A stretch of 64,000 nt of DNA from Syncephalis plumigaleata. Lineage: Eukaryota; Zoopagomycota; Zoopagomycetes; Zoopagales; Piptocephalidaceae. The DNA lies in NCBI GenBank assembly GCA_025201365.1, contig JAIXMF010000005.1, forward strand, positions 1,349,402 to 1,413,401. Reading direction: 5' to 3'. The notes under the pieces are model-generated. The model ran no database searches and was not told where the DNA came from. It saw only the letters and a program-made list of their open reading frames with translations. Positions 12,811-64,000 of the stretch are shown in pieces (within the stretch, counting starts at the first letter, position 1; each line of letters starts with the position of its first letter). A program made the position numbers and the translations under genes.

Positions 12811-13542
12811 AAGAGAAGTGGATAGGAAGAAGAAAGAAGAAGCGAGGAAGAAGCGAAGCTAAGCAAGCTGTAGAATCGAGCGCTATTTATTTGTTAAAAT
12901 GACGTCGTTAATCGTCATTTGGTGATTCAAGTAAGTACTGATGATGCCTCATTGTAATTCATTTTGAAATTTAGTATGTCGATAAACACCCACTTCAATA
13001 ATCCAACTTGATCATATCCTTGTATTTCATTTCATTTTATTTCTTACATATGATTTTTTTACTTGAACGCTGCATAATAGTGTTTATTATAATAAAATCA
13101 GGTATGACAACGTTTCAAAAGAGAGAGAAAGGATATATCTAGTATGTGCAAAGGGCGCCGTCATTATTACCATTTAGATTGCACGCTATTCTGTATTTGG
13201 CAATAAATGCTTTATTGATAGTGATAGTGCTACATTCTACTTCATTTCCTAGTTTAGCATCGACGATTATTTTATTACGAATGATCTGTCAAGGAGATTA
13301 GTCGAGACAGCAGAGTCTTATAATGTGTGCGCTGATATACCGTTTATCAAAGGTGAAACGATAAGTAACGCTAAAGTGGCACGTACCTGAATGAGTGGGA
13401 CCAGCTCAAACCAGGTGGAATCCTTATTGGTAGAGATGTAACGACGAATCGATCATCAGTAGAAGTATCGAAAGCCATTACTACTGAGTGTCGTTTCTCG
13501 AGTTCATGTCATTAACATCTAGTATGTACATTCCTATGTTGA

Positions 13543-14364
13543 TCAATCTACTTCTAAATTGCTATTTTGCGGACGATTGCTATTGTTATTGTTATTGTAT
13601 TGCCGACGACGATTATTGCTGTAGGTATTGTTGCGATTCCTCTGGAAGCAATTTCTCGCAATGTGGCCTAGTTCGTTACACGCATAGCAACGTCGTGCAT
13701 TACTACTATTGTTATTACACCTGTGGTTGTTATTGTTTCGATTATTCTGGAATTCTAAACTGTTCAGTGCTTGAACCAACGCATCAATATCCATAGGTGT
13801 GACATTGCCATTATCTTTCTTTCTTGGTTTGTTTGGAGTCGTTTCACTTCTGCAATGTTGCCGAGAATAATAAAGGGCGCGTGTGTTGAGGAATGTATCA
13901 TCAAGACTACAAGGATTTGCTCGAAGGGACTCAGTCAAATCATATACCGGAAGTGTTTGTCGGAATGCCGCAATGAGTTCTTCGTCTGCTGCGTTGGGGA
14001 TACGACTACGAATGACCATGAACCTGGTAATATGTTCTTCTAGGCCGAGATTATCCGTCCATCGCAAGCTAGATAACTGCAACCGAGCAATGGAAGCTGA
14101 CCGATTGCCTCCATAACGTACGAGGATATCCTTTTTAAACTGCTTCCAGGTCTTAGGTGCCTTGGGACTAGCACGCATGGATTGATGCCACATTGCCGCT
14201 GACCTTCCTAATCACTGAACAGCCCAAACTATTCTCTGTGCTTCATTGTAATCGCTAATTTTCCATACTTGTTCGACAAGATTGCACCAACGGTCCACAG
14301 GAAACCCATTTTCTCCTGTGAACTTCGAGACTGATGATAAAGGTGATCGATCAGTCTGCACCAT
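13543..14364 (-). pseudogene. Gag-like protein with CCHC zinc knuckle, left copy (one in-frame stop)
   Basis: This is a retrotransposon Gag-type frame. The N-terminal capsid-like part contains WHQS and KTWEQF/KTWKQF (capsid helices). It is followed by ALYYSRQH, an Asn-rich linker and one zinc knuckle, CYACNELGHIARNC (CX2CX4HX4C), that would bind nucleic acid. The ATG is at 14364 and the stop at 13543. The left copy carries a TGA at 14212-14214 where the right copy has an Arg codon. No protease, reverse transcriptase, RNase H or integrase frame and no convincing LTR was found nearby. It is therefore either a gag-only fragment of a Ty3-like element or a formerly domesticated gag now decaying. 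Confidence 0.8.
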
Positions 14365-14889
14365 TGATTATAACAATAAAGCAATATCTTACTGAAGTGA
14401 CCGACGCTTGAAAATGAAGACGATATGTAAACAATAATACTGATAGACTTGCTGAAACCTTTTGACGAAAGCGGTGTCAATAATACGGTGACAGTAAAAG
14501 AGAGAACGGTTGCCACTAGTGTACCAACTACAATTGACATGAGATGTTGACTAATGAATCCTTCTCTTTAATAGAACATAAGAATATTTGTATAGGTGTC
14601 ATTCGTATATGGTGTGAATAAATTATGCTCCTCACGCCATGTGCAAAGTGCTGATCGACGAATTCTCATCAACTTGCATGGACGCGCATTTTAATGCATA
14701 CATGCTAAATTGAATTGCTCTAGCTTTAATTACGACCTATATGCCTACTTGTCTCGTTTATCTTATAGAATTGAATATAGTAGTTATCGCTATTAATGAA
14801 GCATGCATGACTAACACTGATTTATCATTATTATTACGCTTGACATTGTTGCGTTCCGTCATTTGGCATTTTTACGGTGATAATGGATA

Positions 14890-16122
14890 TTGATCACGTC
14901 AACCGTTTTGCATTCTCATCGTTACTTGATAGACCAGTACACTTTACATGAACTGCATTGTTCTGCCACATTAATTAGCAATGCCTACGAGGTATTCTCG
15001 TTCAATAAAGGTATGTCGATAAGAAGTGTGAGTAGCATACGCAACGGTAGAACTAATATCTGTCTTGTTTATTGTAGTTATCCAAGAACTGAATCGCTCT
15101 ACCAACGCACAACTATCGGCGTTCTACTTTCAATCTATCAAGGAGCGGCTTTATGCTGACGACAAATTATCATTGGCACGAAGGTCGGCACAGACTGCCG
15201 TATACCACGTAAGAAGCCATTGATACTTGATATGCAATTGTAGCTAAGCAAAGAATGCCGCATAGATAACTGAGGTGTACACACGCGCACTCGCACCAAT
15301 TACTTGTCATTTAGCCGAGAAGATTCAGCTTTTTTCCTGGTCGAGTTGGTCAACACCATTTGATAGCGTATTCCAGTCGGGATGGATATCTCTGGTAAAC
15401 ACTTGCAATTACTGAGCTATGTGTGGTCTAATACTCGAGCATTGATATGAATAGGATGGTCGTTGGCATAATGTTGCTTTGAAATAAGACTGGATAGTGC
15501 TACGATACCTTCGTAATCAGTACTATCAGCTAGTCGGGAAGATGCGACAGGTCAAGTAAGTGCTATCTGCAGTATACCAAATGATTTATTTACAAATCTC
15601 ACTGACTGACAGGCGAATCAAGACAAGCGAGCAAATCGATCTGACACTAGAACTAGAAGACAGAGCAATGTCTCCACTAGGTCAATTACTACATAAATAC
15701 GGTAAGACGGTAATAATAATAATAGCGATAGTGATATCGGTTGTATATAGTTTACTAAGCAATACGCATTAGCATCACAACTACCTGAACTGTTCTTATG
15801 TGTATCAGTTAATGTTGCTGCACAGTCGACATTAACCACGAGAAATGACACTGTTCTTATTAGTGAGACGATATCATTACCAAGTAAGTATGAAGTATGC
15901 AGTATGAATGTGCCGTGATAATGACTATTGATCGACAATGTAATAGACAGTATGAGTGGTGCATCTGGTCAAATGATTCTACGTTTATCGGCACGACATA
16001 AATGTCCTAGATGTTGGAACTATCGATCTGATCAACCGGAATGTCTATGCAATCGATGCCGACTTGTTGTGAACAATAACAAGGGACACGTCATTGACAC
16101 TGCTATGCATTCATGTAACTAA
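14890..16122 (+). pseudogene. IARS2: 5'-truncated isoleucyl-tRNA synthetase (mitochondrial/bacterial type), A1
   Basis: This fragment is the C-terminal third of an IleRS, which charges tRNA-Ile. Spliced pieces match the anticodon-binding region: YTLHEL...AYEVFSFNK (ends at a GTATGT donor), LSAFYFQSIKERLYAD...RRSAQTAVYH, LAPITCHLAEKIQ, and SVFQSGW. They end in the IleRS zinc finger CPRCWNYRSDQPECLCNRC near the stop at 16122. The catalytic domain (HIGH, KMSKS) is absent, so it cannot aminoacylate. A1 has an additional in-frame stop after WHNVALK (about 15486), where A2 stays open. Family identity is secure; the parent gene is presumably elsewhere in the genome. Confidence 0.85.
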
Positions 16123-16831
16123 TAGCAACATCCCATCGATGATGTCCTAGCAAGCCTATTGAATAACAACCTGATTCATTCGATCATCCTGAACACATAG
16201 AACCAAGTTGTTAGACACATACCAATTATAAACCGTTACTTTATCATATAGTACTCGTGTACGATATTCACTATTAGTTGAATGGATTAGAATGATCAGC
16301 TAGCAATTACTACTACTAATGATACCATCATCATCATCAGTTTATAAACATCCATATGGTATGATCAATGATAGGTATTGATACACGCGATACTGCTATT
16401 ATGCGATCTATGCTACATTAATTACTGCCAGCATAGCGAACACTTGATTATTACCATTGATGGTATTTCTATATGAGTATGGACAGTCGTCGTCTCAATC
16501 GGTAAATTAAACTGGGCATATCACATGGCTGACATACCGCAGCAAGTATTCGGCAATTAGAATGGAGTCGGATGTTATTCTCGGTCAGTGGGTGGACTAA
16601 CCGTTTCAGTCGTCGTCAAAGCCGAGCAAGACTATTCATCTAGTATAGATTCATCTATGATATACACCATTTGCATCAATGTAGAACAGCAGTTGCTCGA
16701 AGAATCAACATATAGTTATTGTAAAGATGGATGTTTATTGCGTAAAAGCGTTGGCAAGAATATCATAGCGAGTACATTATAATAAAATCTATGTCTACGC
16801 TGTAGTATAATGTGCAAGCAATTTTGTCTGC

Positions 16832-16871
16832 TTATTTAGTGTGTGGTATAAAAAGGACGCGCACTAAATAA
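16832..16871 (+). promoter_or_regulatory. TATA promoter of gene X inside a 10-bp inverted repeat, A1
   Basis: TATAAAAAGG at 16847-16856 sits in the 20-nt gap between TTATTTAGTG (16832-16841) and its exact complement CACTAAATAA (16862-16871). The equivalents are TATA at 27261-27270 (A2), 49285-49294 (A3, minus) and 59953-59962 (A4, minus). Confidence 0.7.
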
Positions 16872-17268
16872 TGTCACATCATCAACTCATTCATTTCTTT
16901 CTTTTTTCCCACACTAAAAGCACTCACTAAAAGCTATTCACTTGAACTTTAAACGCTGTTCGTCTTCTTGTAGCTTACTAAAACCATAACTGGTAAGTAT
17001 ATTGTTGACCGTGTTGCTGCTGTATCTCTCTTGTATGTTGTTTGTACGTATTCGTCTCTGTTCTACCCGTTGTATGTTCTCTCGTGTGTAGTAGTCTCGC
17101 ATGCATGACTATGCTATTTGCACTGCAAGCGCTCTTCTCGAATACTTTCTATTGTACGTGCTCCATATGTGCTCCTCCCCACTGCATACTTGTTCTATGT
17201 TACTCACGCTGTTCTAATTAATTGATAGTACAAGCATCCATCTGCATCTACCTGTGTTCATCTGCAGT

Positions 17269-18042
17269 ATGTTTTCAGCTTACCAATCCATCTTTATGCC
17301 ATCTGTGCATGGTGCACAGGGCAATAACATTGTGCCACCACACGTCACGGTAAGTGATTATGGCACTAGCAGTTGAAACGCGTTACTAATACGTCACACT
17401 TAGTGTGGTATGATGGGCCTCCGCCCATTCTATAATTCAGAAGCCACGTCCGCTTCCATGATCGTGCGTAAACGATCACACTCCGAAACTGAGTTAAAAC
17501 TAAAAAGCACTTCGGTGCCTAAAAAAGCTCGTCATTTCGAGCGTAAGCGCAAGGATAGCATCCTAGAGCGCATCAAACAACGCGCTATCGAGCGCAAGAA
17601 GCTCTGGCGCCAGTGGAACCGCGAGCGGCTAAGCCGCATTGGCGCTACGCCTCCACTCCCTCTCCCCGCTCCCTCTCTCCCTCCTCTCGATCCGTTCTAC
17701 ATCCTAAATCCCTCTCCCATTCCCGACTTTTGCTTTCTTCGCAACTACCACTACCACTCCTCCACCTCCTCCAATAACACACCAACGCCAATGGAAGACG
17801 TCCGGTATCAACCGGAAGTCGCTCCATTGACAATCATATTCAAACCCAATACCACGGCTCGACCCAGCCGTCCTCTCCGCTCTCGCCGCACCTCCCGCAC
17901 CTCCCGCCCTCATCTTCCTTCCCCTCCCATTTCCCCTACCACTCCCTCTCTCTCCAAGTCTGTGTCGGCAGGGTCGACCGACACGGACGAACCACAGCGC
18001 AAGCGTGTTCGTCGCGTGCGTTGTGTGATACGCGATGAATAA
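17269..18042 (+). CDS. Gene X: basic/proline-rich repeat-borne protein, A1 copy
   Basis: Function unknown. A TATA box, a 5' UTR intron (16993-17267, GTAAGT...GCAG), coding exon 17269-17349 (begins MFSAYQSIF), a 54-nt intron (17350-17403) and exon 17404-18042 give about 239 residues. A second donor just after the stop suggests a 3' UTR intron, and AATAAA follows near 18240. The protein has a strongly basic helix-like block (KKARHFERKRKDSILERIKQRAIERKK... region, about residues 65-105), a Pro/Ser-rich middle and a basic C-terminus (QRKRVRRVRC) that resembles a nuclear localisation signal. It is GC-richer than its surroundings. Near-identity with A2 and A4 and an unbroken frame argue that it is a real gene. 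It lies between the convergent IleRS and PUF60 tails. Confidence 0.75.
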
Positions 18043-18618
18043 TAATAAGGTAAGTCAACACTAATATACACTACTAATACAATAACTAACATTACTACTA
18101 GGTTTTTATTATTACTACTACTACTACTACTATCGGGTTATACCAACAATCTGGCCGTTGCCACACTTTTCCTATTTCCATTCAATATGCGCCATGTATG
18201 GCCAACTGTATCAAATATGTTTGTTTTGCTTTTTCTGTCAATAAATATTCATAATCTCCTGTATACACTTGTCTAAGCGTGTTTACATTTGGTCATATCT
18301 AAAAAGCAAACAACTCAAGTAAGTACAATGCAGCCATATCACACTACTAATACTTTTTATTAGGCATTAGTTTATCATCAAATCCATCATCATTCAATAG
18401 GTTAGTGCATATCGATCAGCTACTACGACATCTAGCACATCATACACTAGTAGTGTATCACCAGCTGTAAACGTATACTGCATTATAATTGACACTCCAT
18501 TGTAGGTAATGTTTAGTGATGCATCATTCTATGGACTACTTGGTCGACTACACATCGTGGCAACATATGTCGTATGAATGTACCAAGTTGAGATATTCAC
18601 TTTATTATTCCTTGGTGT

Positions 18619-19450
18619 CTACATAGCTAATCGATAATTGCCTTGAATAAACGCATTCTGGTTGTAAAAGTAGGCCGTCAACTGTCGCCCACTGAACCAG
18701 CGGCCATGGAGCATCTTCACCGCTTGTTATGCATCAGACACATTATCAAACTGCACGAATATATAGGCGGCACCAGCGGTATCGTCGTCTACTTCAATGT
18801 GAATACGAGTTACGACATCAAAGCGACGACACTCCTCCTCGAAATCTTCGCTTAGTGTATCATCCGCTTCACCGGCAGTGACTGCATTAGCAATACGCAC
18901 CACAGTAGTCGTCGTGTTGTCGCTCTTTTGTGTACGATCATGTACAACACGAGCTGCCTACACCAACAATGTTACTCGATATATCAGTACATACGCGTTG
19001 CCTACCTCTTCACTCTGTGCGAGTTTCTGCATTACCGCATAGCGCTGACTTCCTTTAATGCTGATATGTTCTTCACCCAATACGCTATTCAATGGTTCCA
19101 CCGGTGGTATTGTCATGGATTGTCCTGTCAAGGTATTGCTATGTATGTATGCATGTATGTACATGTATACTACCTTTGACCATAGTACTCGTAGTAGCAG
19201 TATCAGCTATCATGGCAGGTGATGCTTGATGTGGTGCCAATCCTTTTAATGCCTTCATACCTTCAATCAATGTGCTAGGTATCATCGCCGTAATAACATG
19301 AAGATTATTGCCGTCTAGTTCAAATCCATTCATTGCTGCTATGGCCACCGGTACTACTTTATTCGATTCCCAATCAATAAATCTAGTGCAATTTATTAAA
19401 TGTATTTATATACATGCCTTCTACTATCATCTTATCCGTAAGTCTTGTGC
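18619..19450 (-). pseudogene. PUF60: 5'-truncated PUF60-like splicing factor, A1
   Basis: PUF60/Half-pint binds poly(U) tracts with U2AF in the spliceosome. The visible parts are the end of RRM2 (AIAAMNGFELDGNNLHV), a linker exon (ISIKGSQRYAVMQKLAQ), and the C-terminal UHM-type RRM3 ending GRWFSGRQL with the RXF motif. RRM1 and most of RRM2 are missing. The UHM exon carries an in-frame TAA (SDA-stop-QAV), shared with A2 and A4, so this copy is dead. It is convergent with gene X. Confidence 0.85.
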
Positions 19451-20249
19451 TGTCTTGTAGTCCTATTCGGCTAATGCTATTAACGATTTAATGACTAGCA
19501 AACTAGTGAATGGAATGATCACATATGCATATATGCTTACGACGAGGATGCAATACTCGATTTTACCAAATGCTTCAATGATAGTTTACAGTGTCAACTA
19601 TATCATACTAAATAAATCGGATTCACATTACAAATACTCGCATACTCCATAATCATATGCTGTATTCGATGAGCACTTTAAACCGTGTATTTATTGAATA
19701 AACTATGATGACAATGCTTACGGTTAATTGCATAGAGAGCAACGAGTGAATAAATAGAATACACGATAAACAATGTAATAAACAAGCAGTAACTGGTAGA
19801 ATGACTGACTTGTCATGAACGAGCAAGGAATGAGTAAAGAAGGGTGCATGAACACGTATGCCAGTTTATTTGAAGAAGCAGTGTATGCTTGTAGGTGAAT
19901 AGAGTATGTAGATGGCAGTAAACAAATGAAATACAAATAAAAGCATGACGTAAGGGTGGCATACAAACAGATGACGGAAAAGAGTGGTAAAAGTAAAAGG
20001 TACTTATTACAACGAGAACAGTGAACGCTTAAGCATTGATAAATAAGCAGGACAGTGATGGAAAACAAAGGACTAGAACGAACAATAAACAATGCTTATT
20101 GGTATAGTAATAATAACGACAAGTGAGCATGTAGATAGGTTAGAGCAAGAGGAAAACAAAGAAATAAATAAAAGTCATAGAGATAGTATGACAGGATAGC
20201 TGCTATTGGGAATGTGTATGCTAAAGTGAAAGATGAAGTAAGTGGAATG

Positions 20250-20560
20250 CGAATGACACGAAGAAGACGCGTATCATTGAGAAAGTAAATAGGTAAATAG
20301 AAGGAAAAGAAATAGCTAGCATAGAGTTAAGAGGAAGTAAATGTGTGTTGTTTACTGACAAGTGGGATGCAATTGACACAAAGAAGGCACTTACTGTTTA
20401 GTGGTAAGAGAAATGACAGGGAAATGCAGTTGGCATGAAGAAGACGCGTGTTGTTGAATGACAGGGGAAATGAAGTTAGCAGAAAGAAGACAATAGTGGT
20501 AAAGAAGGGAAAGGGAAACATGGAAAACAGTTAGAATGCAGCTGACACAAAGAAGACGCG
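20250..20560 (-). repeat. Degenerate array of an ACGCGTCTTCTTNRTGTCA motif, B1
   Basis: Five to six spaced copies of TGACACRAAGAAGACGCGT (or its complement) occur at about 50-110-bp intervals just beyond the kinase gene's 3' end. They alternate with GGAARTGNAGT-like spacers. Some copies have lost the ACGCGT core. The same array occurs in B2. No protein was recognised. Confidence 0.55.
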
Positions 20561-20822
20561 TGCTGTTTAAGGAAGTAAATAACAGGGAGAATGAGCAATA
20601 GATGGAATAGTGGATACATGCAGCGTGAAATGGCAGTAGTGACAAGCATGTGTATGTAGTGGGATAAGGTAGAATGAATGAATAAATTGTAATGAATAGA
20701 GAAAGCAACAGTGAAATGAATTTAGTAGCAAGTATAGAAATGTTTGTATTGGTAATTTAATTGTTAATGACAATAGTAGTACATTTATTGAACAGAATTG
20801 CATGATACACCAGTGATGACAT

Positions 20823-23365
20823 TTAAGGAGCGTACCGTGGTCGCTTTGGTGATTGATCGGCCTGGTCGGATTGTGAGTGGCTAGCAAGCTCGCGCTTGTT
20901 CGTTTCTTCCAACGATTTAAGCCATGGATGCTGCAGGGCATCCTTGACCGTCATTCGTTGGATAGGATTCAATTGAAGAAGGCGGTTAATAAAATCAATA
21001 CCTAAACAGTATTCGTTATAGTTAGCTGATTTTATTGGTGTACTCGTAACCTACCTTCATGCACAGGTGCATTGAAATTTATAGTTTTAAATGGTGTTTG
21101 TTCATTTAAAATCTCCTCTAGGCACTCTTTATAAGTGCGCTTACCCATGCATCCCGGGAATGGATGCTCATCTATAGTATATCGCGTTAGCTATCATTAA
21201 TTTTAAGCAGAGATTAACTTACAGGATAGCAGCAAATATGTAAGCACGCCTACGCTCCACATATCGCTACTTATACTATATCCAAGGTACGAATTTAAAA
21301 TATAGGCAACTTTCTGCATACCGATATCACCTTGATTTATGAAGGATTGCACAATTGTAGTCGCATCTTCCTGGCACAAGAGGATTTCCGGTGCCGTATA
21401 CATTGGGGTGCCAGTAAGCGACTGGATAGGCGTATATGGATATACGAATTCGTGCGACAATCCAAAATCTGCCAGGAGGATGCGTGTACAATCCTTGTTC
21501 TTGAAAAGAACATTTTCCAGCTATGTTTGTGTTAATATTTGTAATAAAGCAAATAAATAAATGACTTACCTTTATGTCTAATTGTAATTGAATTACATTA
21601 AATAAATCACCATGAGTACACATTATTAGTTAATCCTAAGCACAGCTGATTACTTACCAAGGTGAGCGATATTGGCGTTGTGCAAATCCTAATAGTATAT
21701 GGTTAATATAGCTTTAATAGTAGTCATAGTTGTATTACTTACCTGAAGCGCCAACAGGATTTGGCGGACAATTGCCTTGACCTTGTCTTCAGGGAGAAGT
21801 ATTGGGGTTTTCTTAATGTAGTCTAAAAGACTACCTCCCTTAGCGAGTTCCGCGACAACAAACGTGCCATAATCATTTTGATTGAAGTTAATGACACGTA
21901 AAATATTTCGTTGTTTGCGAAATTTTCGCATTATGCCCCATTCGTTTTCCAGTGCCGTATTGCCGCTATGGGCTTGCTTGATCGCCACTTCTTCCCCGGT
22001 AGTGCGCGATATTCCTTTGTAGACGGCACCGAAACCGCCACTAGATGCGCACGTTAGCTATTCATTATAGAATTTCCCTGTATTTAGCTATTTGGTCGCT
22101 TACCTGCCGAGACACTTTGTAGTATGATAGTACTCTCCGAGCATCTGTACCGTGTTAGTAGTAATATTGTATACATTTGTCTCCATTTACCTGTGTATAA
22201 TAAACAGGCGACACTTGCTCTGATTCTGCGTGTTCTAACGCGGTATAGAAAAATTTGTCTATATATATTGTTAGCTTAAGTTTATCAATGAAGTTGCTGT
22301 AACTTACTATCACAAGCGTTTATATTGATGGTGCCGACGTTTATAAATGTTCTGTGTTCATTTTCTTGTATATTGTTTACTACAGAGTTGATTAGCATGA
22401 GTATTTGATCGTACATACCAATAACTTACTAGTTAAAACACCAGAACCTCCATTCTAATAAACGATTAGTTAAACGTTCAATACATTTGAGCATAGTACT
22501 TACTATGATATGGATCTTGCCATTCTTCTGATGAGTTGCAGGTTAGATTATATCCATCGTTTAATAAGATTATGATCTTACCTCTGATATGTCGAAAGCG
22601 CAGATCGTATCGAGAGGAAGCATATAATCACTAATATGTTGCAATTAGCAAGTAGATCAAGGTGACATAGTAGTGACTTACCAGCTAGCTTCATTACCAA
22701 ATGATAGCTTGCCACCACGGTAAAGTAACAATTCTATAGATAGGTTAGTTATTGTAGTCAATATCATTTAAACACAGCTTACCTTGCTTATCATCATCCA
22801 CCGTTATCCACCCTACTAGCTTCGCGCGTTTCTCCTGCTTCAGCTTGAGCCACTCAAAAGGCACATGAATAAATTTATTGTGCTTTTTCCCTACACCTGA
22901 GCCACCGTCGCCAGCAGATGATAGTTGTGCTGGCTTTGGCGATAACACCACTGTTTGAGCAAGCACCGACTCCGAGGCAGCAGCAGCGACAGTGGTAGTA
23001 GTAGTATCAGGAGCAGTGGCAGTAGCAGTAGTAGTAGGAGAGGTGGTAGCGGTAGTAGCAGGAGCAGTGGCAGCAGTAGTAGTAGTAGGAGAGGTGGTAG
23101 CGGTAGTAGCAGGAGCAGTGGCAGCAGCAGTAGTAGTAGGAGAGGTGGTAGCGGTAGTAGCAGGAGCAGTGGCAGCAGCAGTAGTAGTAGGAGAGGTGGT
23201 AGCGGTAGTAGCAGGAGCAGTGGCGGTAGCGGGAATAGGAGCTGAAGTAAAAGCGGCAATACGTACTCTTCCATCGTTAATACCAGCGGTAGTAGCTGGT
23301 ATTAGAATAGGTGCAGACTTTGACGCTAGCACTCGTATTGGTGCTGGACCGGCACGTCGTTCCAT
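20823..23365 (-). CDS. FHA-CAMK protein kinase (Chk2/Rad53-like architecture), B1 copy
   Basis: The spliced product is about 600 residues from roughly 14 exons. Order: an Ala/Thr/Pro low-complexity N-terminus with 17-residue repeats; an FHA-like domain (ELLLYRGGKLSFGNEASCDYML ... GGSGVLT ... FINVGTININ) that lacks an obvious SxxH phosphothreonine-binding pair; then a kinase domain. Kinase motifs: GSGGFGAVYKG loop, VAIK lysine, catalytic loop AHLDIKLENVLF (HLD instead of HRD), ADFGLS, YTAPEIL and DMWSVGV. The catalytic D-I-K is encoded by an 8-nt microexon at 21570-21577. The C-terminus is SPKRPRYAP, NLS-like. FHA plus CAMK order suggests a checkpoint-type nuclear kinase; the pathway is inferred. 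All catalytic residues are present, so it may be active. Confidence 0.82.
22990..23230 (-). repeat. 51-bp coding minisatellite in kinase N-terminus, four units (B1)
   Basis: Tandem units encode ATAPATTATTSPTTTA-like 17-residue repeats. B1 has one unit more than B2 (53640-53830). Confidence 0.8.
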
Positions 23366-23828
23366 CTTGGGAGCGCAATCGTTAAGTATATAACTGTAAG
23401 GGTATAGAAAGCAGGAGTGGAGCTGTATGGGATAAGAAAAGCTTGCGCGTAAACCAAGATTGAACTAGATAGTGGATAGAACTGGAAGAGTAGTGGAATA
23501 AGAGGTTGTGCATAGCCCAGTACCTACTGTCGCCATCACTAGTGGCTTTATATAATGCAGCACATAGGTCATAAAACTGTAGCTTCAGCTTATACCGCTA
23601 CACTTCGTCCAGTACGCTTTGTACCTGGGAATATTTCAAACTCATACTGAATAGAGCTGAGCAGAACAGAGCAGAATAGACCAGCTCCAACACTATAATA
23701 ATCACATGTTTTTTACGATCTTTGCCGATACTTGACCGATTTCGACGCGGCAAGTTTGCTTACATTGCTTGACACTTGAATAAATACGCTGTGCACATTT
23801 AATGTATATATCTTTATTCATGATAAAT

Positions 23829-24038
23829 TTACAGAGTGTAGAAGATATTGGTCGTCAAGATAAACAAGCAAAGTGACTGCGCTCTTGCATCGTCTTTATT
23901 TGGAAGGTGGTTTTGCTCTATGTAAGCAGCCACAATCCGTCTGATTATTGACAAAGGACCCGCACTGATATCGTTTACCAGGATTCCCTTCCTTCCTTTC
24001 TTTCCTCTTTTACTAGCGGTATGAAGTTGGCAGTTCAT
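23829..24038 (-). pseudogene. Gene-tail ORF ending ...AAYIEQNHLPNKDDARAQS... (B1)
   Basis: I do not recognise this protein. A conserved C-terminal segment (IIRRIVAAYIEQNHLPNKDD, then LCLFILTTNIFYTL and a stop) is followed by an AATAAA signal. It is present once here and twice in tandem in B2 with the same stop position. It has no visible 5' exons, so it is best seen as a truncated gene 3' end carried in the repeat. Confidence 0.4.
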
Positions 24039-24657
24039 CCCATTATTTCGACGCTGTTAGTTCATCCCAATTCAGATATCGCAAGCTATCGTTTTCCTCA
24101 TTTCTTTGTTCACTTATCCAACACAACGCTTTCAAAAACGATTATCAAACAGCTATTCCATCTAGGTTACACAATCCTTGCCAAAAAATTCACACGCCGT
24201 TATTCCACTTATGCACTGCAGCCACGTCCTTATAACATCGCGCTGCAACCTAGCTTAACCCTGTGCACGTTGTCACCGTCAACTACTATTTAATCCTAGC
24301 CCATCAGAACTAACCGACCGCACACTGCATCCGTTATCTTTCTCAACTGTCTACGTCTTTTGCGCTTTTGTTTTTCTTTCGTTTTCCACCATCATTCTGC
24401 TACTCTTTTCTTGTAATGACACTTCCTACATAATACTGTCGTTTATATACATAGAATGAGTTATTCTTTATTATATTTGTTCGTATGGCGGTAACAATAA
24501 GTATGCTAATAGGTACTATATATTTGCGCTTTATTTGCTTGAATGTACACATGCATGGGACATTGGTTGTTGGAGCTACAGTCGAAAGTAGCAGCGAGCT
24601 TAAGTGACTGGAGGTAGTACCGAGTAGTGGAACGGGGCACGCATTGCGATACAGTTT

Positions 24658-49801: not shown

Positions 49802-49839
<38 letters not shown>

Positions 49840-51920: not shown

Positions 51921-52559
51921 AAACTGTATCGCAATGCGTGCCCCGTTCCACTACTCGGTACTACCTCCAGTCACTTAAGCTCGCTGCTACTTTCGACTGT
52001 AGCTCCAACAACCAATGTCCCATGCATGTGTACATTCAAGCAAATAAAGCGCAAATATATAGTACCTATTAGCATACTTATTGTTACCGCCATACGAACA
52101 AATATAATAAAGAATAACTCATTCTATGTATATAAACGACAGTATTATGTAGGAAGTGTCATTACAAGAAAAGAGTAGCAGAATGATGGTGGAAAACGAA
52201 AGAAAAACAAAAGCGCAAAAGACGTAGACAGTTGAGAAAGATAACGGATGCAGTGTGCGGTCGGTTAGTTCTGATGGGCTAGGATTAAATAGTAGTTGAC
52301 GGTGACAACGTGCACAGGGTTAAGCTAGGTTGCAGCGCGATGTTATAAGGACGTGGCTGCAGTGCATAAGTGGAATAACGGCGTGTGAATTTTTTGGCAA
52401 GGATTGTGTAACCTAGATGGAATAGCTGTTTGATAATCGTTTTTGAAAGCGTTGTGTTGGATAAGTGAACAAAGAAATGAGGAAAACGATAGCTTGCGAT
52501 ATCTGAATTGGGATTAAGTAATAGCGTCGAAATAATGGGATGAACTGCCAACCTCATAA

Positions 52560-53165
52560 GCACTAGTAAAAGATGAATGGATGGAAGGAAATCTTGGTAA
52601 ACGGTATCAGTGCGGAAGTGCTTTGTCAATAATCAGGCAAATCGTGGCTGCTTACATAGAGCAAAACCACCTTCCAAATAAAGACGATGCAAGAGCGCAG
52701 TCACTTTGCTTGTTTATCTTGACGACCAATATCTTCTACACTCTGTAAATTTATCATGAATAAAGATATATACATTAAATGTGCACAGCGTATTTATTCA
52801 AGTGTCAAGCAATGTAAGCAAACTTGCCGCGTCGAAATCGGCCAAGTATTGGCAAAGATCGTAAAAAATGGATGGATGGATGGATGGAAATCCCAGTAAA
52901 CGATATCGGTGCGGGTCTTTTGCCAATAATCAGACGGATTATGGCTGCTTACATAGAGCAAAACCACCTTCCAAATAAAGACGATGCAAGAGCGCAGTCA
53001 CTTTGCTTGTTTATCTTGACGACCAATATCTTATATGCCCTGTAAATTTATCATGAATAAAGATATATACATTAAATGTGTACAGCGTATTTAGTCAAGT
53101 GTCAAGCTATCCAAGCGAACTTGCCGCGTTGAAATCGGTCAAGTATTGGCAAAGATCGTAAAAAA
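52560..53165 (+). repeat. About 300-bp tandem duplication carrying the ...AAYIEQNHLPNKDD... gene tail (B2)
   Basis: Two head-to-tail copies (about 52560-52866 and 52867-53165) each encode the tail ending at the same stop (NIFYTL in the first, NILYAL in the second). Each is followed by AATAAAGATATATACATT. B1 has a single copy at 23700-24038. A (GGAT)n run marks the junction. Confidence 0.8.
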
Positions 53166-53508
53166 CATGTGATTATTATAGTGTTGGAGCTGTTCAGTTC
53201 TGCTCAGCTCAGCTCAGCTCTACGCAGTATGAGTTTGAAATATTCCCAGGTACAAAGCGTACTGGACGAAGTGTAGCGGTATAAGCTGAAGCTACAGTTT
53301 TATGACCTATGTGTTGCGTTATATAAAGCCACTAGTGATGGCGACAGTAGGTACTGGGCTATGCACAACCTCTTATTCCACTACTCTTCCAGTTCTATCC
53401 ACTATCTAGTTCAATCTTGGTTTACGCGCAAGCTTTTCTTATCCCATACAGCTCCACTCCTGCTTTCTATACCCTTACAGTTATATACTTAACGATTGCG
53501 CTCCCAAG

Positions 53509-56000
53509 ATGGAACGACGTGCCGGTCCAGCACCAATACGAGTGCTAGCGTCAAAGTCTGCACCTATTCTAATACCAGCTACTACCGCTGGTATTAACGA
53601 TGGAAGAGTACGTATTGCCGCTTTTACTTCAGCTCCTATTCCCGCTACCGCCACTGCTCCTGCTACTACCGCTACCACCTCTCCTACTACTACTGCTGCT
53701 GCCACTGCTCCTGCTACTACCGCTACCACCTCTCCTACTACTACTGCTGCTGCCACTGCTCCTGCTACTACCGCTACCACCTCTCCTACTACTACTGCTA
53801 CTGCCACTGCTCCTGATACTACTACTACCACTGTCGCTGCTGCTGCCTCGGAGTCGGTGCTTGCTCAAACAGTGGTGTTATCGCCAAAGCCAGCACAACT
53901 ATCATCTGCTGGCGACGGTGGCTCAGGTGTAGGGAAAAAGCACAGTAAATTTATTCGTGTGCCTTTTGAGTGGCTCAAGCTGAAGCAGGAGAAACGCGCG
54001 AAGCTAGTAGGGTGGATAACGGTGGATGATGATAAGCAAGGTAAGCTGTGTTTAAATGATATTGACTACAATAACTAACCTATCTATAGAATTGTTACTT
54101 TACCGTGGTGGCAAGCTATCATTTGGTAATGAAGCTAGCTGGTAAGTCACTACTATGTCACCTTGATCTACTTGCTAATTGCAACATATTAGTGATTATA
54201 TGCTTCCTCTCGATACGATCTGCGCTTTCGACATATCAGAGGTAAGATCATAATCTTATTAAACGATGGATATAATCTAACCTGCAACTCATCAGAAGAA
54301 TGGCAAGATCCATATCATAGTAAGTACTATGCTCAAATGTATTGAACGTTTAACTAATCGTTTATTAGAATGGAGGTTCTGGTGTTTTAACTAGTAAGTT
54401 ATTGGTATGTACGGTCAAATACTCATGCTAATCAACTCTGTAGTAAACAATATACAAGAAAATGAACACAGAACATTTATAAACGTCGGCACCATCAATA
54501 TAAACGCTTGTGATAGTAAGTTACAGCAGCTTCATTGATAAACTTGAGCTAACAACATATATAGACAATTTTTTATATACCGCGTTAGAACACGCAGAAT
54601 CAGAGCAAGTGTCGCCTGTTTATTATACACAGGTAAATGGAGACAAATGTATACAATATTACTACTAACACGGTACAGATGCTCGGAGAGTACTATCATA
54701 CTACAAAGTGTCTCGGCAGGTAAGCGACCAAATAGCTAAATACAGGGAAATTCTATAATGAATAGCTAACGTGCGCATCTAGTGGCGGTTTCGGTGCCGT
54801 CTACAAAGGAATATCGCGCACTACCGGGGAAGAAGTGGCGATCAAGCAAGCCCATAGCGGCAATACGGCACTGGAAAACGAATGGGGCATAATGCGAAAA
54901 TTTCGCAAACAACAAAATATTTTACGTGTCATTAACTTCAATCAAAATGACTATGGCACGTTTGTTGTCGCGGAACTCGCTAAGGGAGGTAGTCTTTTAG
55001 ACTACATTAAGAAAACCCCAATACTTCTCCCTGAAGACAAGGTCAAGGCAATTGTCCGCCAAATCCTGTTGGCGCTTCAGGTAAGTAATACAACTATGAC
55101 TACTATTAAAGCTATATTAACCATATACTATTAGGATTTGCACAACGCCAATATCGCTCACCTTGGTAAGTAATCAGCTGTGCTTAGGATTAACTAATAA
55201 TGTGTACTCATGGTGATTTATTTAATGTAATCCAATTACAATTAGACATAAAGGTAAGTCATTTGATTATTTGCTTTATTACAAATATTAACACAAACAT
55301 AGCTGGAAAATGTTCTTTTCAAGGACAAGGATTGTACACGCATCCTCCTGGCAGATTTTGGATTGTCGCACGAATTCGTATATCCATATACGCCTATCCA
55401 GTCGCTTACTGGCACCCCAATGTATACGGCACCGGAAATCCTCTTGTGCCAGGAAGATGCGACTACAATTGTGCAATCCTTCATAAATCAAGGTGATATC
55501 GGTATGCAGAAAGTTGCCTATATTTTAAATTCGTACCTTGGATATAGTATAAGTAGCGATATGTGGAGCGTAGGCGTGCTTACATATTTGCTGCTATCCT
55601 GTAAGTTAATCTCTGCTTAAAATTAATGATAGCTAACGCGATATACTATAGATGAGCATCCATTCCCGGGATGCATGGGTAAGCGCACTTATAAAGAGTG
55701 CCTAGAGGAGATTTTAAATGAACAAACACCATTTAAAACTATAAATTTCAATGAACCTGTGCACGAAGGTAAGTTACGAGTACACTAATAAAATCAGCTA
55801 ACTATAACGAATACTGTTTAGGGATTGATTTTATTAATGGGCTTCTTCAATTGAATCCTATCCAACGAATGACGGTCAAGGATGCCCTGCAGCATCCATG
55901 GCTTAAATCGTTGGAAGAAACGAACAAGCGCGAGCTTGCTAGCCACTCACAATCCGACCAGGCCGATCAATCACCAAAGCGACCACGGTACGCTCCTTAA
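53509..56000 (+). CDS. FHA-CAMK protein kinase, B2 copy
   Basis: Same gene as 20823-23365, with the same exons, motifs and 8-nt microexon (55246-55253). The first exon is 53509-54040. The FHA-like domain runs from about 54088 to 54514. The glycine loop is formed across the junction to the exon starting near 54781 (LGSGGFGAVYKG). The stop is at 56000. Differences from B1 are few: three minisatellite units instead of four, RKQQ for RKQR, NEPVHE for NAPVHE. All kinase landmarks (VAIK, HLDIKLEN, DFG, APE) are intact, so both copies could be expressed. Confidence 0.82.
53640..53830 (+). repeat. 51-bp coding minisatellite, three units (B2)
   Basis: Units encode the Ala/Pro/Thr 17-residue repeat seen in B1, one unit fewer. 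Confidence 0.8.
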
Positions 56001-56239
56001 ATGTCATCACTGGTGTATCATGCAATTCTGTTCAATAAATGTACTACTATTGTCATTAACAATTAAATTACCAATACAAACATTTCTATACTTGCTACTA
56101 AATTCATTTCACTGTTGCTTTCTCTATTCATTACAATTTATTCATTCATTCTACCTTATCCCACTACATACACATGCTTGTCACTACTGCCATTTCACTC
56201 TGCGTGTATCCACGATTCCATCTATTGCTCATTCTCCCT

Positions 56240-56560
56240 GTTATTTATTTCTTTAAACAGCACGCGTCTTCTTTGTGTCAACTGCATTCTAACTGTTTTC
56301 CATGTTTCCCTTTCCCTTCTTTACCACTATTGTCTTCTTTCTGCTAACTTCATTTCCCCTGTCATTCAACAACGCGCGTCTTCTTCATGCCAACTGCATT
56401 TCCCCGTCATTTCCCTTACCACTAAACAGTAAGTGCCTTCTTTGTGTCAACTACATTCCACTTGTCAGTAAACAACACGCGTCTACTTCCTCTTAACTAT
56501 ATGCTAGCTAGTTCTTTTACTTTCTCAGTAATACACGTCTTCTTCGTGTCATTCACATTC
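56240..56560 (+). repeat. Array of ACGCGTCTTCTT-type motifs (B2)
   Basis: Copies such as CACGCGTCTTCTTTGTGTCA recur with about 50-bp spacing between pyrimidine-rich spacers, directly downstream of the kinase. It mirrors 20250-20560. Confidence 0.55.
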
Positions 56561-57339
56561 CACTTACTCCCTCTTTCACTTTAGCATACACATTCCCAAT
56601 AGCAACTATCCTGCCATACTATCTCTATGACTTTTATTTATCTCTTTGTTCTCTTCCTCTTGCTCTAAACTATCTACATGCTCACTTGTCGTTATTATTA
56701 CTATACCAATAAGTGTTGTTTATTGTTCGTTCTAGTCCTTTGCTTTCTATCACTGTCCTGCTTATTTATCAATGTTTAAGCGTTTACTGCTCTCGTTGTA
56801 ATATGTACCTTTTACTTTTACCACTCTTTTCCGTCCTCTGTTTGTATGCCACCCTTACGTCATGCTTTTATTTGTATTTTTATTTGTTTACTGCCATCTA
56901 CATACTCTATCTACCTACAAGCATACACTGCTTCTTCAAATAAACTGGCATACGTGTTCATGCACCCTTCCTTGTTCATTTCTTGCTCAATCGTGACAAG
57001 TCAGTCATTCTACCAGTTACTGCTTGTTTATTACATTGTTTATCGTGTATTCTATTTGTTCACTCGTTGCTCTCTATGCAATTAACCGTAAGCATTGTCA
57101 TCATAGTTTATTCAATAAATACACGAGTCACAATACTCATCGAATATAGCATATGATTATGGAGTATGCGAGTATTTGTAATGTGAATCCGATTTATTTA
57201 GTATGATATAGTTGACACTGTAAACTATCATTGAAGCATTTGGTAAAATCGAGTATTGCATCCTCGTCGTAAGCATATATGCATATGTGATCATTCCATT
57301 CACTAGTTTGCTAGTCATTAAATCGTTAATAGCATTAGC

Positions 57340-58190
57340 CGAATAGGACTACAAGACAGCACAAGACTTGCAGGTAAGATGGTAGCAGAAGACATGTATA
57401 TAAATCCATTTAATAAACTGCACTAGATTTATTGATTGGGAATCGAATAAAGTAGTACCGGTGGCCATAGCAGCAATGAATGGATTTGAACTAGGCGGCA
57501 ATAATCTTCATGTTATTACAGCGATGATACCTGGCACATTGATCGAAGGCATGAATGCATTAAAAGGATTGGCACCACATCAAGCATCATCTGCTACGAT
57601 AGCCAGTACTGCTACTACGAGTACTATGGTCAAAGGTAGTATACATGTACATACATGCATACATACATAGCAATACCTTGACAGGACAATCCATGACAAT
57701 ACCACCGGTGGAACCATTGAATAGCGTATTGGGTGAAGAACATATCAGCATTAAAGGAAGTCAGCGCTATGCGGTAATGCAGAAACTCGCACAGAGTGAA
57801 GAGGTAGGCAACACGTATGTACTGGTATATCGAGTAACATTGCTGGTGTAGGCAGCCCGTGTTGCACATGATCGTGCACAAAAGAGCGACAACACGACGA
57901 CTACTGTGGTGCGTATTGCTAATGCAGTCACTGCCGGTGAAGCGGATGATACACTAAGCGAAGATTTCGAGGAGGAGTGTCGTCGCTTTGATGTCGTAAC
58001 TCGTATTCACATTGAAGTAGACGACGATACCGCTGGTGCCGCCTATATATTCGTGCAGTTTGATAATGTGTCTGATGCATAACAAGCGGTGAAGATGCTC
58101 CATGGCCGCTGGTTCAGTGGGCGACAGTTGACGGCCTACTTTTACAACCAGAATGCGTTTATTCAAGGCAATTATCGATTAGCTATGTAG
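57340..58190 (+). pseudogene. PUF60: 5'-truncated PUF60-like splicing factor, A4
   Basis: It has the RRM2 end (AIAAMNGFELGG), the SSATIAS variant shared with A3, the linker and the UHM exon. The in-frame TAA is at 58079-58081, shared with A1 and A2. Non-functional fragment. Confidence 0.85.
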
Positions 58191-58765
58191 ACACCAAGGA
58201 ATAATAAAGTGAATATCTCAACTTGGTACATTCATACGACATATGTTGCTATAATGTGTAGTCGAGCAAGTAGTCCGTAGAATGATGCATCATTAAACAT
58301 TACCTACAATGGAGTGTCAATTACAATGTGGTATACCTTTACAGCTGGTGATACACTACTAGTGTATGATGTGCTAGATGTCGTAGTAGCTGATCGATAC
58401 GTACTAACCTATTGAATGATGATGGATTTGATGGTAATCTTGTGTCTAATAAAAAGTATTAGTAGTATGATATGGCTGCATTGTACTTACTTGAACTGTT
58501 TGCTTTTTAGATATGACCAAGTGTAAACACGCTTAGACAAGTGTATACAGGAGATTATGAATATTTATTGACAGAAAAAGCAAAACAAACATATTGATAC
58601 AGTTGGCCATACATGGCACATATTGAATGGAAATAGGAAAAGTGTGGCAACGGCCACATTGTTGGTATAACCCGATAGTAGTAGTAGTAATAATAAAAAC
58701 CTATTAGTAATGTTAGTTATTGTATTAGTAGTGTATGTTAGTGTTGACTTACCTTATTATTATTA

Positions 58766-59539
58766 TTATTCATCGGGTATCACACAACGCACGCGACGAA
58801 CACGCTTGCGCTGTGGTTCGTCCGTGTCGGTCGACCCTGCCGACACAGACTTGGAGAGAGAGGGAGTGGTAGGGGAAATGGGAGGGGAAGGAAGATGAGG
58901 GCGGGAGGTGCGGGAGGTGCGGCGAGAGCGGAGAGGACGGCTGGGTCGAGCCGTGGTATTGGGTTTGAATATGATTGTCAATGGAGCGACTTCCGGTTGA
59001 TACCGGACGTCTTCCATTGGCGTTGGTGTGTTATTAGAGGAGGTGGAGGAGTGGTAGTGGTAGTTGCGAAGAAAGCAAAAGTCGGGAATGGGAGAGGGAT
59101 TTAGGATGTAGAACGGATCAAGAGGAGGGAGAGAGGGAGCGGGGAGAGGGAGTGGAGGCGTAGCGCCAATGCGGCTTAGCCGCTCGCGGTTCCACTGGCG
59201 CCAGAGCTTCTTGCGCTCGATAGCGCGTTGTTTGATGCGCTCTAGGATGCTATCCTTGCGCTTACGCTCGAAATGACGAGCTTTTTTAGGCACCGAAGTG
59301 CTTTTTAGTTTTAACTCAGTTTCGGAGTGTGATCGTTTACGCACGATCATGGAAGCGGACGTGGCTTCTGAATTATAGAATGGGCGGAGGCCCATCATAC
59401 CACACTAAGTGTGACGTATTAGTAACGCGTTTCAACTGCTAGTGCCATAATCACTTACCGTGACGTGTGGTGGCACAATGCTATTGCCCTGTGCACCATG
59501 CACAGATGGCATAAAGATGGATTGGTAAGCTGAAAACAT
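58766..59539 (-). CDS. Gene X, A4 copy
   Basis: Intact. The main coding exon (58766-59404) translates identically to that of A2 (C-terminus CVIPDE). The first coding exon is 59459-59539, and the TATA box is at 59953-59962 on the minus strand. Confidence 0.75.
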
Positions 59540-60469
59540 ACTGCAGATGAACACAGGTAGATGCAGATGGATGCTTGTACTATCAATTAATTAGAGCAGC
59601 GTGAGTAACATAGAACAAGTATGCAGTGGGGAGGAGCACATATGGAGCACGTACAATAGGAACATAATCGAGAAGAACGCTTGCAGTGCAAATAGCATAG
59701 TCATGCACACGAGACTACTACACACGAGATAACATACAACGGGTAGAACAGAGACGAATACGTGCAAACAACATACAAGAGAGATACAGCAGCAACACGG
59801 TCAACAATATACTTACTAGTTATGGTTTTAGTAAGCTACAAGAAAACGAACAGCGTTTAAAGTTCAAGTGAATAGCTTTTAGTGAGTGCTTTTAGTGTTG
59901 AAAGAAAGAAAGAAATGAATGAGTTGATGATGTGACATTATTTAGCGCGCGTCCTTTTTATACCACACACTAAATAAGCAGACAAAATTGCTTGCACATT
60001 CTACTACAGCGTAAACACAGATATTTATTATAATGTACTCGCTATAATATTTTTGCCAATGCTTCTACGCAATAAACATCCATGTTTACAATAACTATAT
60101 GTTGATTCTTCGAGCAACTGCTGTTCTACATTGATGCAAATGGTGTATGTCATAGATGAATCTATACTAGATGATTAGCCTTGCTGGGTTTGACGACGAC
60201 TGAAACGGTTAGTCCACCCACTGACCGAGAATAACATCCGATTCCATTCTAATTACCGAATACTTACTGCGGTATGTCAGCCATGTGATATGCCCAGTTT
60301 AATTTACCGATTGAGACGACGACTGTCCATACTCATATAGAAATGCCGTCAATGGTAATAATCGAGTGTTCGCTATGTTGGCAGTAATTAATGTAGCGTA
60401 GATTGCATAATAGCAGTATCGCGTGTATCAATATCTATAATTGGTCATATCATATGGATGTTTATAGAC

Positions 60470-60507
<38 letters not shown>

Positions 60508-60710
60508 GTATCATTAGTAGCAATAATTGCTAGCTGATCAGTCTAATCCATTCAACTAATAGTGAATATCGTACACGAGTACTATATGATAAAGTAACGG
60601 TTTATAATTGGTATGTGTCTAACAACTTGGTTCCATGTGTTCAGGATGATCGAATGAATCAGGTTGTTATTCAATAGGCTTGCTAGGACATCATCGATGG
60701 GATGTTGCTA

Positions 60711-61939
60711 TTAGTTACATGAATGCATAGTAGTATCAATGACATGTCCCTTGTTATTGTTCACAACAAACTGGCATCGATTGCATAGACATTCCGGTTG
60801 ATCAGATCGATAGCTCCAACATCTAGGACATTTATGTCGTGCCGATAAATGTAGAATCATTTGGCCAGATGCACCATTCATAGTGTCTATTACATTGTCG
60901 ATCAATAGTCATTATCATGGCACACTCATACTTCATACTCCATGCTTATTTGGTAATGATATCGTTTCACTAATAAGGACAGTGTCATTTCTCGTGGTTA
61001 ATGTCGACTGTGCAGCAACATTAACCGATGCACATAAGAACAGTTCAGGTAGCTGTGATGCTAATGCGTATTGCTTAGTAAATATGTACAAATAATATCA
61101 CTATCGCTATTATTATTATTACCGTCTTACCGTATTTCTGTAGCAATTGACCTAGTGGAGACATTGCACTGTCTTTTAGTTCTAGTGTCAGATCGATTTG
61201 CGCGCTTGTCTTGACTCCCCTGTCAGTCAATGAGATTTGTCAAGAAATCATTTGGTATACTGCAGATAGCACTTACTTGGCCTGTCGCACCTTCTCGACT
61301 AGCTGGTAGTACTGACTACGAAGGTGTCGTAGCACTGTCCAGTCTTGCTCCAAAGCAGTATTATGCCAACGACCATCCTATTCATATCAATGCTCGAGTG
61401 TTAGACCACACATAGCTCAGTGATTGCAAGTATTTACCAGTGATATCCATCCCGAGTGGAATACGCTATCAAATGGTGTCGACCAACTCGACGAGGAGAA
61501 AAGCTGAATCTTCTCGGCTAAATGACAAGTAATTGGTGCGAGTGCGCGTGTGTACACCTCAGTTATCTATGCGGCATTCCTTGCTTAGCTACATTTGCAT
61601 ATCAAGTATCAATGGCTTACGTGGTATACGGCAGTCTGTGCTGATCTTCGTGCCAACGATAATTTGTCGTCAACGTAAAGCCGCTCCTTGATAGATTGAA
61701 AGTAGAACGCCGATAGTTGTGAGTTGGTAAAGCGATTCAATTCTTGAATAACCACAATAAATAAGAAAGATATTAGTTCTACCGTTGCGTATGCTATTCA
61801 CACTTCTTATCGACATACCTTTATTGAACGAGAATACTTGGTAAGTATTGCTAATTAACGTGGCAGAACAATGTAGTTTATGTAAAGTGTACTGGTCTAT
61901 CAAGTAACAATGAGAATGCAAAACGGTTGACGTAATCAA
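60711..61939 (-). pseudogene. IARS2: 5'-truncated isoleucyl-tRNA synthetase, A4
   Basis: C-terminal IleRS fragment. Its last exon, with the zinc finger CPRCWSYRSDQPECLCNRC, translates identically to A3 and differs from A1/A2. The catalytic core is missing. Confidence 0.85.
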
Positions 61940-62465
61940 TATTCATTATCACTGTAGAAATGCCAACTGGCACGGCGCAACAATGTCAAGCGTAATAATA
62001 ATGATAAATCAGTGTTAGTCATGCATGCTTCATTGATAGCGATAACTATTATCATCAATTCTATAAGATAAACGATACGAGTACGCATATAGGTCGTGAT
62101 TAAAGCTAGAGTAATTTAATTTAGCATATATGCATTAATATGCGCGTCCATGCAAGTTGATGAGAATTCGTCAATCAGCAATTTGCACATGGCGTAAGGA
62201 GCATAATTTATTCACACCATATACGAATGACACCTATATAAATATTCTTATGTTCTATTAAAAAGGAGGATTCATTAGTCAACATCTCATGTCAATTGCA
62301 GTTGGTACACTAGTGGCAACCGTTCTCTCTTTTACTGTCACCGTGTTATTGACACCGCTTTCGTCGAAAAGGTTTCAGCAAGTCTATCAATATTATTGTT
62401 TACATATCGTCTTCATTTTCAAGCGTCAGTCACTTCAGTAAGGTATTGCTTTATTGTTATAATCA

Positions 62466-63284
62466 ATGGTGCAGGCTGATCGATCACCTTTATCATCAGT
62501 CCCGAAGTTCACAGAAGAAAATGGGTTTCCTGTGGACCGTTGGTGCAACCTTGGCGAACATGTATGGAAAATTAACGATTACAATGAAGCACAGAAAATA
62601 GTTTGGGCTGTTCAGCGATTAGGAGGATCAGCGGCAGCTTGGCATCAATCCATAAACGCTAGTCCCAAGGCACCTAAGACCTGGGAACAATTTAGAAAGG
62701 ATATCCTCGTACGTTATGGAGGCAATCGATCAGCTTCCATCGCTCGGTTGCAGTCACCTAGCTTGCGGTGGACGGAGAATCCCACTTAGAAGAACATATT
62801 ACCAGGTTCATGGTCATTCGTAGTCGTATCCCCAACGCAGCAGACGAAGAACTCATTGCGGCATTCCGACAAACACTTCCGGTATATTATTTGACTGAGT
62901 CCCTTCGAGCAAACCCTTGCAGTCTTGGTGATACATTCCTCAACACACGCGCCCTTTATTATTCTCGGCAACATTGCAGAAGTGAAACGACTCCAAACAA
63001 ACCAAGAAAGAAAGATAATGGCAATGTCACACCTATGGATATTGATGCGTTGGTTCAAGCACTGAACAGTTTAGAATTCCAGAATAATCGAAACAATAAC
63101 AACCACAGGCGTAATAACAATAGTAGTAATGCGCGACGTTGCTATGCGTGTAACGAACTAGGCCACATTGCGAGAAATTGCTTCCAGAGGAATCGCAACA
63201 ATACCTACAGCATAATCGTCGTAGCAATACAATAACAATAACAATAGCAATCGTCCGCAAAATAGCAATTTAGAAGTAGATTGA
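62466..63284 (+). pseudogene. Gag-like protein with CCHC zinc knuckle, right copy (frameshifted)
   Basis: Counterpart of 13543-14364. The N-terminal half reads from ATG 62466 (MVQADRSPL) and includes the Arg codon that is a stop in the left copy. A 1-nt deletion near 62785 (after RWTEN) shifts the frame; the second frame (LEEHITRF onward) carries the Asn-rich linker and CYACNELGHIARNC. A further indel near 63210 changes the C-terminus. No pol genes or LTRs were recognised around it. Confidence 0.8.
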
Positions 63285-64000
63285 TCAACATAGGAAATGT
63301 ACATACTAGATGTAATGACGTGAACTCGAGAAACGACACTCATTAGTAATGGCTTGCGATACTTCTACTGATGACTGGTTCGTCGTTACATCTCTACCAA
63401 TAAGGATTCCACCTGGTTTGAGCTGGCCCACTCATTCAGGTACGTGCCACTTTAGCGTTACTTACCGTTTCACCTTGATAAACGTATATCAGCGCACACA
63501 TTAATACACTCTGCTGTCTCGACTAATCTCTGACAAATCATTCGTAATAAAATAATCGTAGATGCTAAACTAAAATGAAGTAGAATGTAGCACTATCACT
63601 ATCAATAAAGCATTTATTGCCAATACAGAATAGCGTGCAATCTAAATGGTAATAATGGCGGCGCCCTTTGCACATACTAGATATATCTTTCTCTCTCTTT
63701 TAAACGTTGTCATACCTTATTTTATTATAATACACTATTATGAAACGTTCAAGTAACAAGATCATATATAAGAATAAAATGAAATGAAATACAAGGATAT
63801 GATCAAGTTGGATTATCGAAGTGGTGTTTATCGACATACTAAATTTCAAAATGAATTACAATGAGCATCATCAGTACTTACTTGAATCACCAAATGACGA
63901 TTAACGACGTCATTTTAACAAATAAATAGCGCTCGATTCTACAGCTTGCTTAGCTTCGCTTCTTCCTCGCTTCTTCTTTCTTCTTCTTATCCACTTCTCT
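63285..64000. other. Outer non-coding part of the right C segment
   Basis: Matches 12811-13542 in reverse, ending in the pyrimidine-rich complement of the left GA-rich tract. No gene was recognised; the repeat continues beyond the window. Confidence 0.6.

Follow-up and report, generated by a model that had tools for sequence, protein, structure and literature searches.

Two long inverted arms around a nine-gene core in Syncephalis plumigaleata: a probable mosaic segmental duplication with patchy identity between its arms

Long inverted arms around a stretch of different sequence are an arrangement that is already known from other genomes. In mammalian sex chromosomes, palindromes consist of gene-bearing inverted arms around a spacer and are kept similar by gene conversion (PMC8981503; PMC3723533), with arm identities above 99% (X set median 99.953%, 37 kb; PMC8981503). 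In human inversions mediated by inverted repeats, a core lying between inverted segmental duplications recurrently inverts and both of its orientations were genotyped (PMC3961182). The flip/flop mating-type switching of budding yeasts relies on a region between inverted repeats, 138 kb in Komagataella phaffii, which carries the mating-type genes and inverts by recombination (PMC6692504). Ectopic gene conversion, by which neighbouring duplicates overwrite each other and stop codons spread, was described for a duplicated region of Aspergillus chromosome 1, in a report whose abstract mentions no inverted arms around a core (PMC12844118). Palindromes in the animals Folsomia candida and Adineta vaga are inverted collinear gene blocks on single scaffolds that were discussed in connection with gene conversion, and arms built from a block between two direct repeats (A-B-A) are absent from the excerpted text of that study (PMC5490193). 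Here we describe a locus of the fungus Syncephalis plumigaleata (GenBank assembly GCA_025201365.1, contig JAIXMF010000005.1, positions 1,349,402 to 1,413,401 of the forward strand), in which two arms of this A-B-A type enclose a core of nine gene models.

The locus shares with the mammalian palindromes its gene-bearing inverted arms and with the human loci a core between inverted duplications. Unlike the palindromes, it is fungal, its arms are 96.5% identical and it contains internal direct repeats whose matches to each other extend over longer tracts than those between the arms. It is known here in one orientation, whereas the human inversions were genotyped in both, and, in contrast to the flip/flop regions, no mating-type domain was found in the core frames scanned. 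We consider it likely that this part of a fungal nuclear chromosome is an inverted segmental duplication of mosaic make-up, kept similar by gene conversion.

The analysed stretch, further called the window, comprises 64,000 bases with a G+C content of 40.3% and no N. Self-BLAST of the window yielded two inverted, colinear matches, 12812-24013 against 64000-52861 (95.4%, 11,242 columns) and 23709-29988 against 52868-46582 (94.8%, 6,328 columns), and a direct repeat A of about 4.65 kb that is present twice in each arm. Alignment of 12812-29976 with 64000-46600 using MAFFT gave 601 differences in 17,024 ungapped columns, 457 of which are transitions and 144 transversions, a similarity far beyond chance. 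The two long similar arms thus lie in opposite orientation around different sequence, and they are made of chromosomal, gene-bearing DNA. As the partner of base 12812 is the last base of the window, this left limit does not mark a visible end of homology and 17.2 kb is a minimum arm length. The segments are as follows (A1 and A2 being the two copies of A, L and R the left and the right arm):

12812-29976, plus strand: left arm, outer end beyond view (self-BLAST, MAFFT)
14880-19521, plus strand: A1L, direct repeat (self-BLAST)
19522-25296, unstranded: block B of the left arm (self-BLAST, MAFFT)
25297-29935, plus strand: A2L, direct repeat (self-BLAST)
29936-29976, plus strand: short tail beyond A2 in the left arm, adjoining an NKAP-like gene, 32 of 41 columns alike
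29977-46599, unstranded: core, containing nine gene models and free of repeats of at least 200 bp within the window
46600-46634, minus strand: tail of the right arm, adjoining COX11 (alignment)
46635-51281, minus strand: A2R, direct repeat (self-BLAST)
51282-57287, unstranded: block B of the right arm (self-BLAST, MAFFT)
57288-61949, minus strand: A1R, direct repeat (self-BLAST)
46600-64000, minus strand: right arm, inverted relative to the left and truncated by the window end (self-BLAST, MAFFT)

These alignments bear out the initial annotation, which had proposed an inverted duplication of more than 17 kb per arm around a 16.6-kb core, with the same gag-A-B-A order in both arms facing inward to nine ordinary genes. 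Its claim that the arms are not one sequence placed twice by simple error holds as well, since the 601 differences together with the indels exclude a plain copy. Inversion of the core and breakage-fusion events, which it also raised as outcomes of such arms, are candidates. The core had moreover been called single-copy, which stands as far as the window reaches, the span within which it was checked: in the self-BLAST, about 29977-46599 had no match of at least 200 bp elsewhere in the window. The indels between the arms comprise one unit of a 51-bp minisatellite and (TGA)n differences of 24 bp, next to smaller gaps. In addition, the right arm has a 297-bp tandem duplication at 52572-53165, with units that are 90% alike and a single unit in the left arm. 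Both right-arm copies of A carry 12.7 units of (TGA)n (49802-49839 and 60470-60507), and both left-arm copies are 24 bp shorter.

The identity between the arms is patchy. Per 100 bp, the number of differences ranges from 0 to 14, and 44 of 170 such intervals are free of differences compared to 5.1 expected, with an index of dispersion of 3.23 versus a maximum of 1.32 in 1,000 shuffles. Segment identities amount to 95.6% in the outer part, 96.1% in A1, 97.9% in B and 95.6% in A2, compared to 78% in the 41-column tail. Eleven runs of at least 250 bp are identical between the arms, the longest (925 bp) lying in B, and identity drops over the last 800 columns, the final eight 100-bp intervals before the core showing 5, 8, 4, 8, 9, 8, 11 and 9 differences. 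Identical tracts thus lie beside divergent ones beyond chance, a between-arm signal that two haplotypes would give as well.

Comparison of the four copies of A with each other extends this picture to the inside of the arms. The longest identical runs within an arm measure 2,273 bp (A1R/A2R) and 1,082 bp (A1L/A2L), and in all six pairs of copies the longest run exceeds the maximum of 1,000 shuffles. When only the 311 polymorphic columns of A were shuffled, the run was reached by 0 of 10,000 shuffles in five of the six pairs. Of the columns that divide the copies two against two, 62 separate the arms and 19 the positions (16 of the latter at the edges, where the flanks stop aligning), and 8 group the copies crosswise. 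In the half of A2R that encodes a U2AF-homology motif (UHM), stretches differ by 6-10% from all three other copies. Altogether, the patchy identity fits concerted evolution by gene conversion within and between the arms, fading at the edge.

Neither A nor B has the look of a transposon. The Pfam scans on which the gene assignments draw covered seven sets of ten pieces, in a window that contains 100 stop-to-stop frames of at least 90 amino acids plus shorter ones. In each copy of A, two convergent cellular genes are represented by truncated 3' ends, putatively from an isoleucyl-tRNA synthetase gene and a gene for a PUF60-type splicing factor, as found in the following pieces:

15266-16119, plus strand: isoleucyl-tRNA synthetase-like 3' end in A1L, with a zinc-finger piece at 15925-16119, the pieces before it being our own reading
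18730-19405, minus strand: PUF60-type splicing factor 3' end in A1L, with a premature stop
46751-47548, plus strand: PUF60-type splicing factor 3' end in A2R, last exon open (RRM_1 2e-07, PUF60 5.6e-13)

The zinc-finger piece matched zf-FPG_IleRS in Pfam at 0.023, below the cut-off, and an isoleucine-tRNA ligase in PDB at 7e-4. The PUF60-type piece, on the minus strand of A, corresponds to the C-terminal UHM. Its last exon shares an early stop in three copies of A and is open in A2R alone; in the two stop-bearing copies that were scanned RRM_1 reached only 0.054, and one stop-bearing copy matched splicing factor 45 at 8.4e-4 and PUF60 at 0.011. The preceding exon matches only the second half of the RRM (profile positions 43-70, E-value 0.13, below the cut-off), and in our reading of the frames there is no further upstream PUF60-type exon within A; therefore both cellular genes appear to be truncated where A ends. 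An open frame of 212 amino acids lies between them (17404-18042 and 27819-28457); it had no Pfam match in the copy scanned and is altered and partly out of frame in A2R.

Block B contains a protein kinase gene with introns, and a gag frame flanks the outer copy of A:

20826-23464, minus strand: protein kinase gene with introns in B of the left arm, right counterpart at about 53410-55997
13546-14211, minus strand: gag frame in the left arm, open (Retrotrans_gag 2.5e-08, zinc knuckle 4.8e-06)
62463-63235, plus strand: right-arm gag counterpart, split over two frames, the second piece with a zinc knuckle (3e-06)

The kinase gene matched Pkinase in two pieces (9.1e-15 and 1.2e-11) and in a third below the cut-off (6.7e-4). 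Five of the six kinase pieces that were compared between the arms are free of stops in both; the sixth has one stop in the right arm, which by eye falls in the intron after the exon end. The 51-bp minisatellite (22992-23224 and 53650-53831) lies inside an open frame on the N-terminal side of the kinase gene, and the additional unit in the left arm preserves the reading frame. No pol domain was found in the frames tested. With the gag frame as query, viral contigs yielded no confirmed relative.

Taking A and B as pieces of cellular genes and the copies of A as homogenised within each arm, two points that go beyond the initial annotation, shifts the reading from a transposon-like compound to a segmental duplication of mosaic type. 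What is observed directly is the layout, the genes it holds and the patchiness of the identity. The ancestral block would already have been a patchwork, made up of a gag relic, a chromosome fragment (A) cut inside two convergent cellular genes, the kinase gene of B and another copy of A. An inverted copy of this block would then have arisen beyond the nine-gene core. Conversion could later have overwritten stretches of the arms, acting above all between the two copies of A in one arm but also from arm to arm, and would have left long identical tracts beside older divergent patches and an identity that fades towards the core. We infer conversion as the cause and this order of events, as well as the ability of arms this long and this alike to pair and invert the core.

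Several points weigh against this explanation. The outer ends of the arms lie beyond view, so a bounded duplication is a candidate; two haplotypes of one locus would also look patchy; and the long identical tracts within the arms could be a consensus that was written twice by the assembler. The longest run between A1L and A2R was reached by 54 of 10,000 shuffles of the 311 polymorphic columns, and the shuffle tests in general ignore selection, uneven mutation rates and shared ancestry. The isoleucyl-tRNA synthetase identity, being below the Pfam cut-off, is a putative one that draws mainly on the PDB match.

The main rival explanation is a join of two haplotypes, which we regard as rather unlikely. 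The true inverted repeat would then be shorter (e.g. only A2 on both sides), and one haplotype or nucleus would carry the core in reverse orientation. The assembler would have linked the flank of one haplotype, the core and then the same flank of the other haplotype, making the outer arms alleles. Two haplotypes, too, typically diverge in a patchy way, and the homology reaches the window end without a visible outer limit. While the arm divergence excludes a plain copy error, two diverged haplotypes joined around an inversion-heterozygous core would be compatible with it, albeit at the same low probability. A related artefact is described in yeast assemblies, where very large inverted repeats extend up to the contig ends and are ascribed by the authors to the assembler (PMC6692504). 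The copies in that artefact, however, differed by one nucleotide, compared to 601 differences in 17,024 columns here, so that considerable heterozygosity would be needed, and a true inverted repeat and an inversion would still be required.

Alternatively, gag-A-B-A could be a family of duplicons that has spread through the genome, two members of which would lie opposite each other around the core by coincidence, with exchange partners elsewhere too. A third, partial copy of the junction between A and B points in this direction:

10182-11270, plus strand: junction of the end of A with the start of B, a partial and older copy that lies outside the visible left arm (self-BLAST, alignment)

This copy is about 9% diverged from both arms, and the stretches of A2R that are 6-10% off the other copies of A look as if they came from another copy. 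We nevertheless hold such a coincidence to be quite doubtful, as the arms share a long compound order and an inner end within about 41 bp of A2. Out of 1,071 columns in the three-way alignment, 952 show no difference and 71 set both arms against the third copy; 25 group the third copy with the left arm, 22 group it with the right arm, and in 1 column all three differ. The junction of A and B thus seems to predate the separation of the arms, and gag-A-B-A may be part of a larger family of duplicons. The third copy lies just downstream of an NSE4-like gene (8827-9682).

That the arms represent a large compound mobile element inserted twice, with the copies of A as long terminal repeats (LTRs) around B, is very improbable, as A holds the ends of cellular genes, B contains a kinase gene with introns and the frames tested held no pol domain, notwithstanding the A-B-A layout and the adjacent gag frame. 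For a target-site duplication around A-B-A, the longest word shared by the flanks is 5 bp, and among 500 shuffles 313 attained this length on the left and 322 on the right. An LTR retrotransposon with A as its LTR was rejected in view of the absence of a target-site duplication beyond chance, the kinase identity of the B frames tested and the position of gag outside A-B-A. A terminal-inverted-repeat element was likewise found wanting, the inverted words at the ends of A-B-A being just 5-6 bp long, a length for which no shuffle control was made.

Within the core, eight of the nine gene models scored above the Pfam cut-off, and the ninth is an open frame of 465 amino acids without a match:

NKAP-like (Nkap_C 3.4e-19)
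465-amino-acid frame (no match)
short-chain dehydrogenase (2.7e-15)
GrpE (6.8e-42)
chitin synthase (2.8e-80)
ML-domain protein (8.3e-29)
PPP4R2-like (6.4e-10)
NFU/NifU (2.4e-27)
COX11 (1.8e-48)

The families and relatives of the chitin synthase point to a fungus; chitin synthases with a Chitin_synth_1N domain are of the fungal type. When the chitin synthase was run against bacterial and archaeal genome contigs, no confirmed relative came up. No mating-type domain was present among the core gene models scanned, a scan that left some open frames out, and a search with bacterial settings found no tRNA gene. With start codons placed by eye, the arm homology stops 104 bp before that of the NKAP-like gene and about 140 bp before that of COX11. 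Since the arms end within about 150 bp of both start codons, an inversion would swap the upstream context of these two genes and spare the core. One could thus imagine, as a doubtful extension, that the nine-gene housekeeping core is inverted back and forth in the population by the two mosaic arms, the synthetase and splicing-factor fragments acting as conversion templates.

A search limited to open-licence papers found no paper tied to this locus. If real, a mosaic inverted segmental duplication at this locus would offer a compact fungal case for the origin of inverted segmental duplications and for conversion that fades at arm ends, as well as for asking if housekeeping genes can occupy an invertible segment. 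It is also the type of locus for which short-read or diploid assemblies warrant checking; general ideas would stay unchanged.

A few minor observations complete the description. The C/T differences between the arms, counted on one strand, number 67, 57, 52 and 40 before A, T, C and G, corresponding to 5.4, 5.5, 8.4 and 5.7% of the respective left-arm C counts, and a bias as left by repeat-induced point mutation was rejected, with no excess at CpA or CpG and no formal test. In the left flank of the window, a frame with a fasciclin domain is found at 582-1334 (2.8e-07). Just before A2 in the left arm (25127-25242), a stretch of 17 bases and its exact reverse complement lie about 80 bp apart by eye, possibly representing a foldback element.

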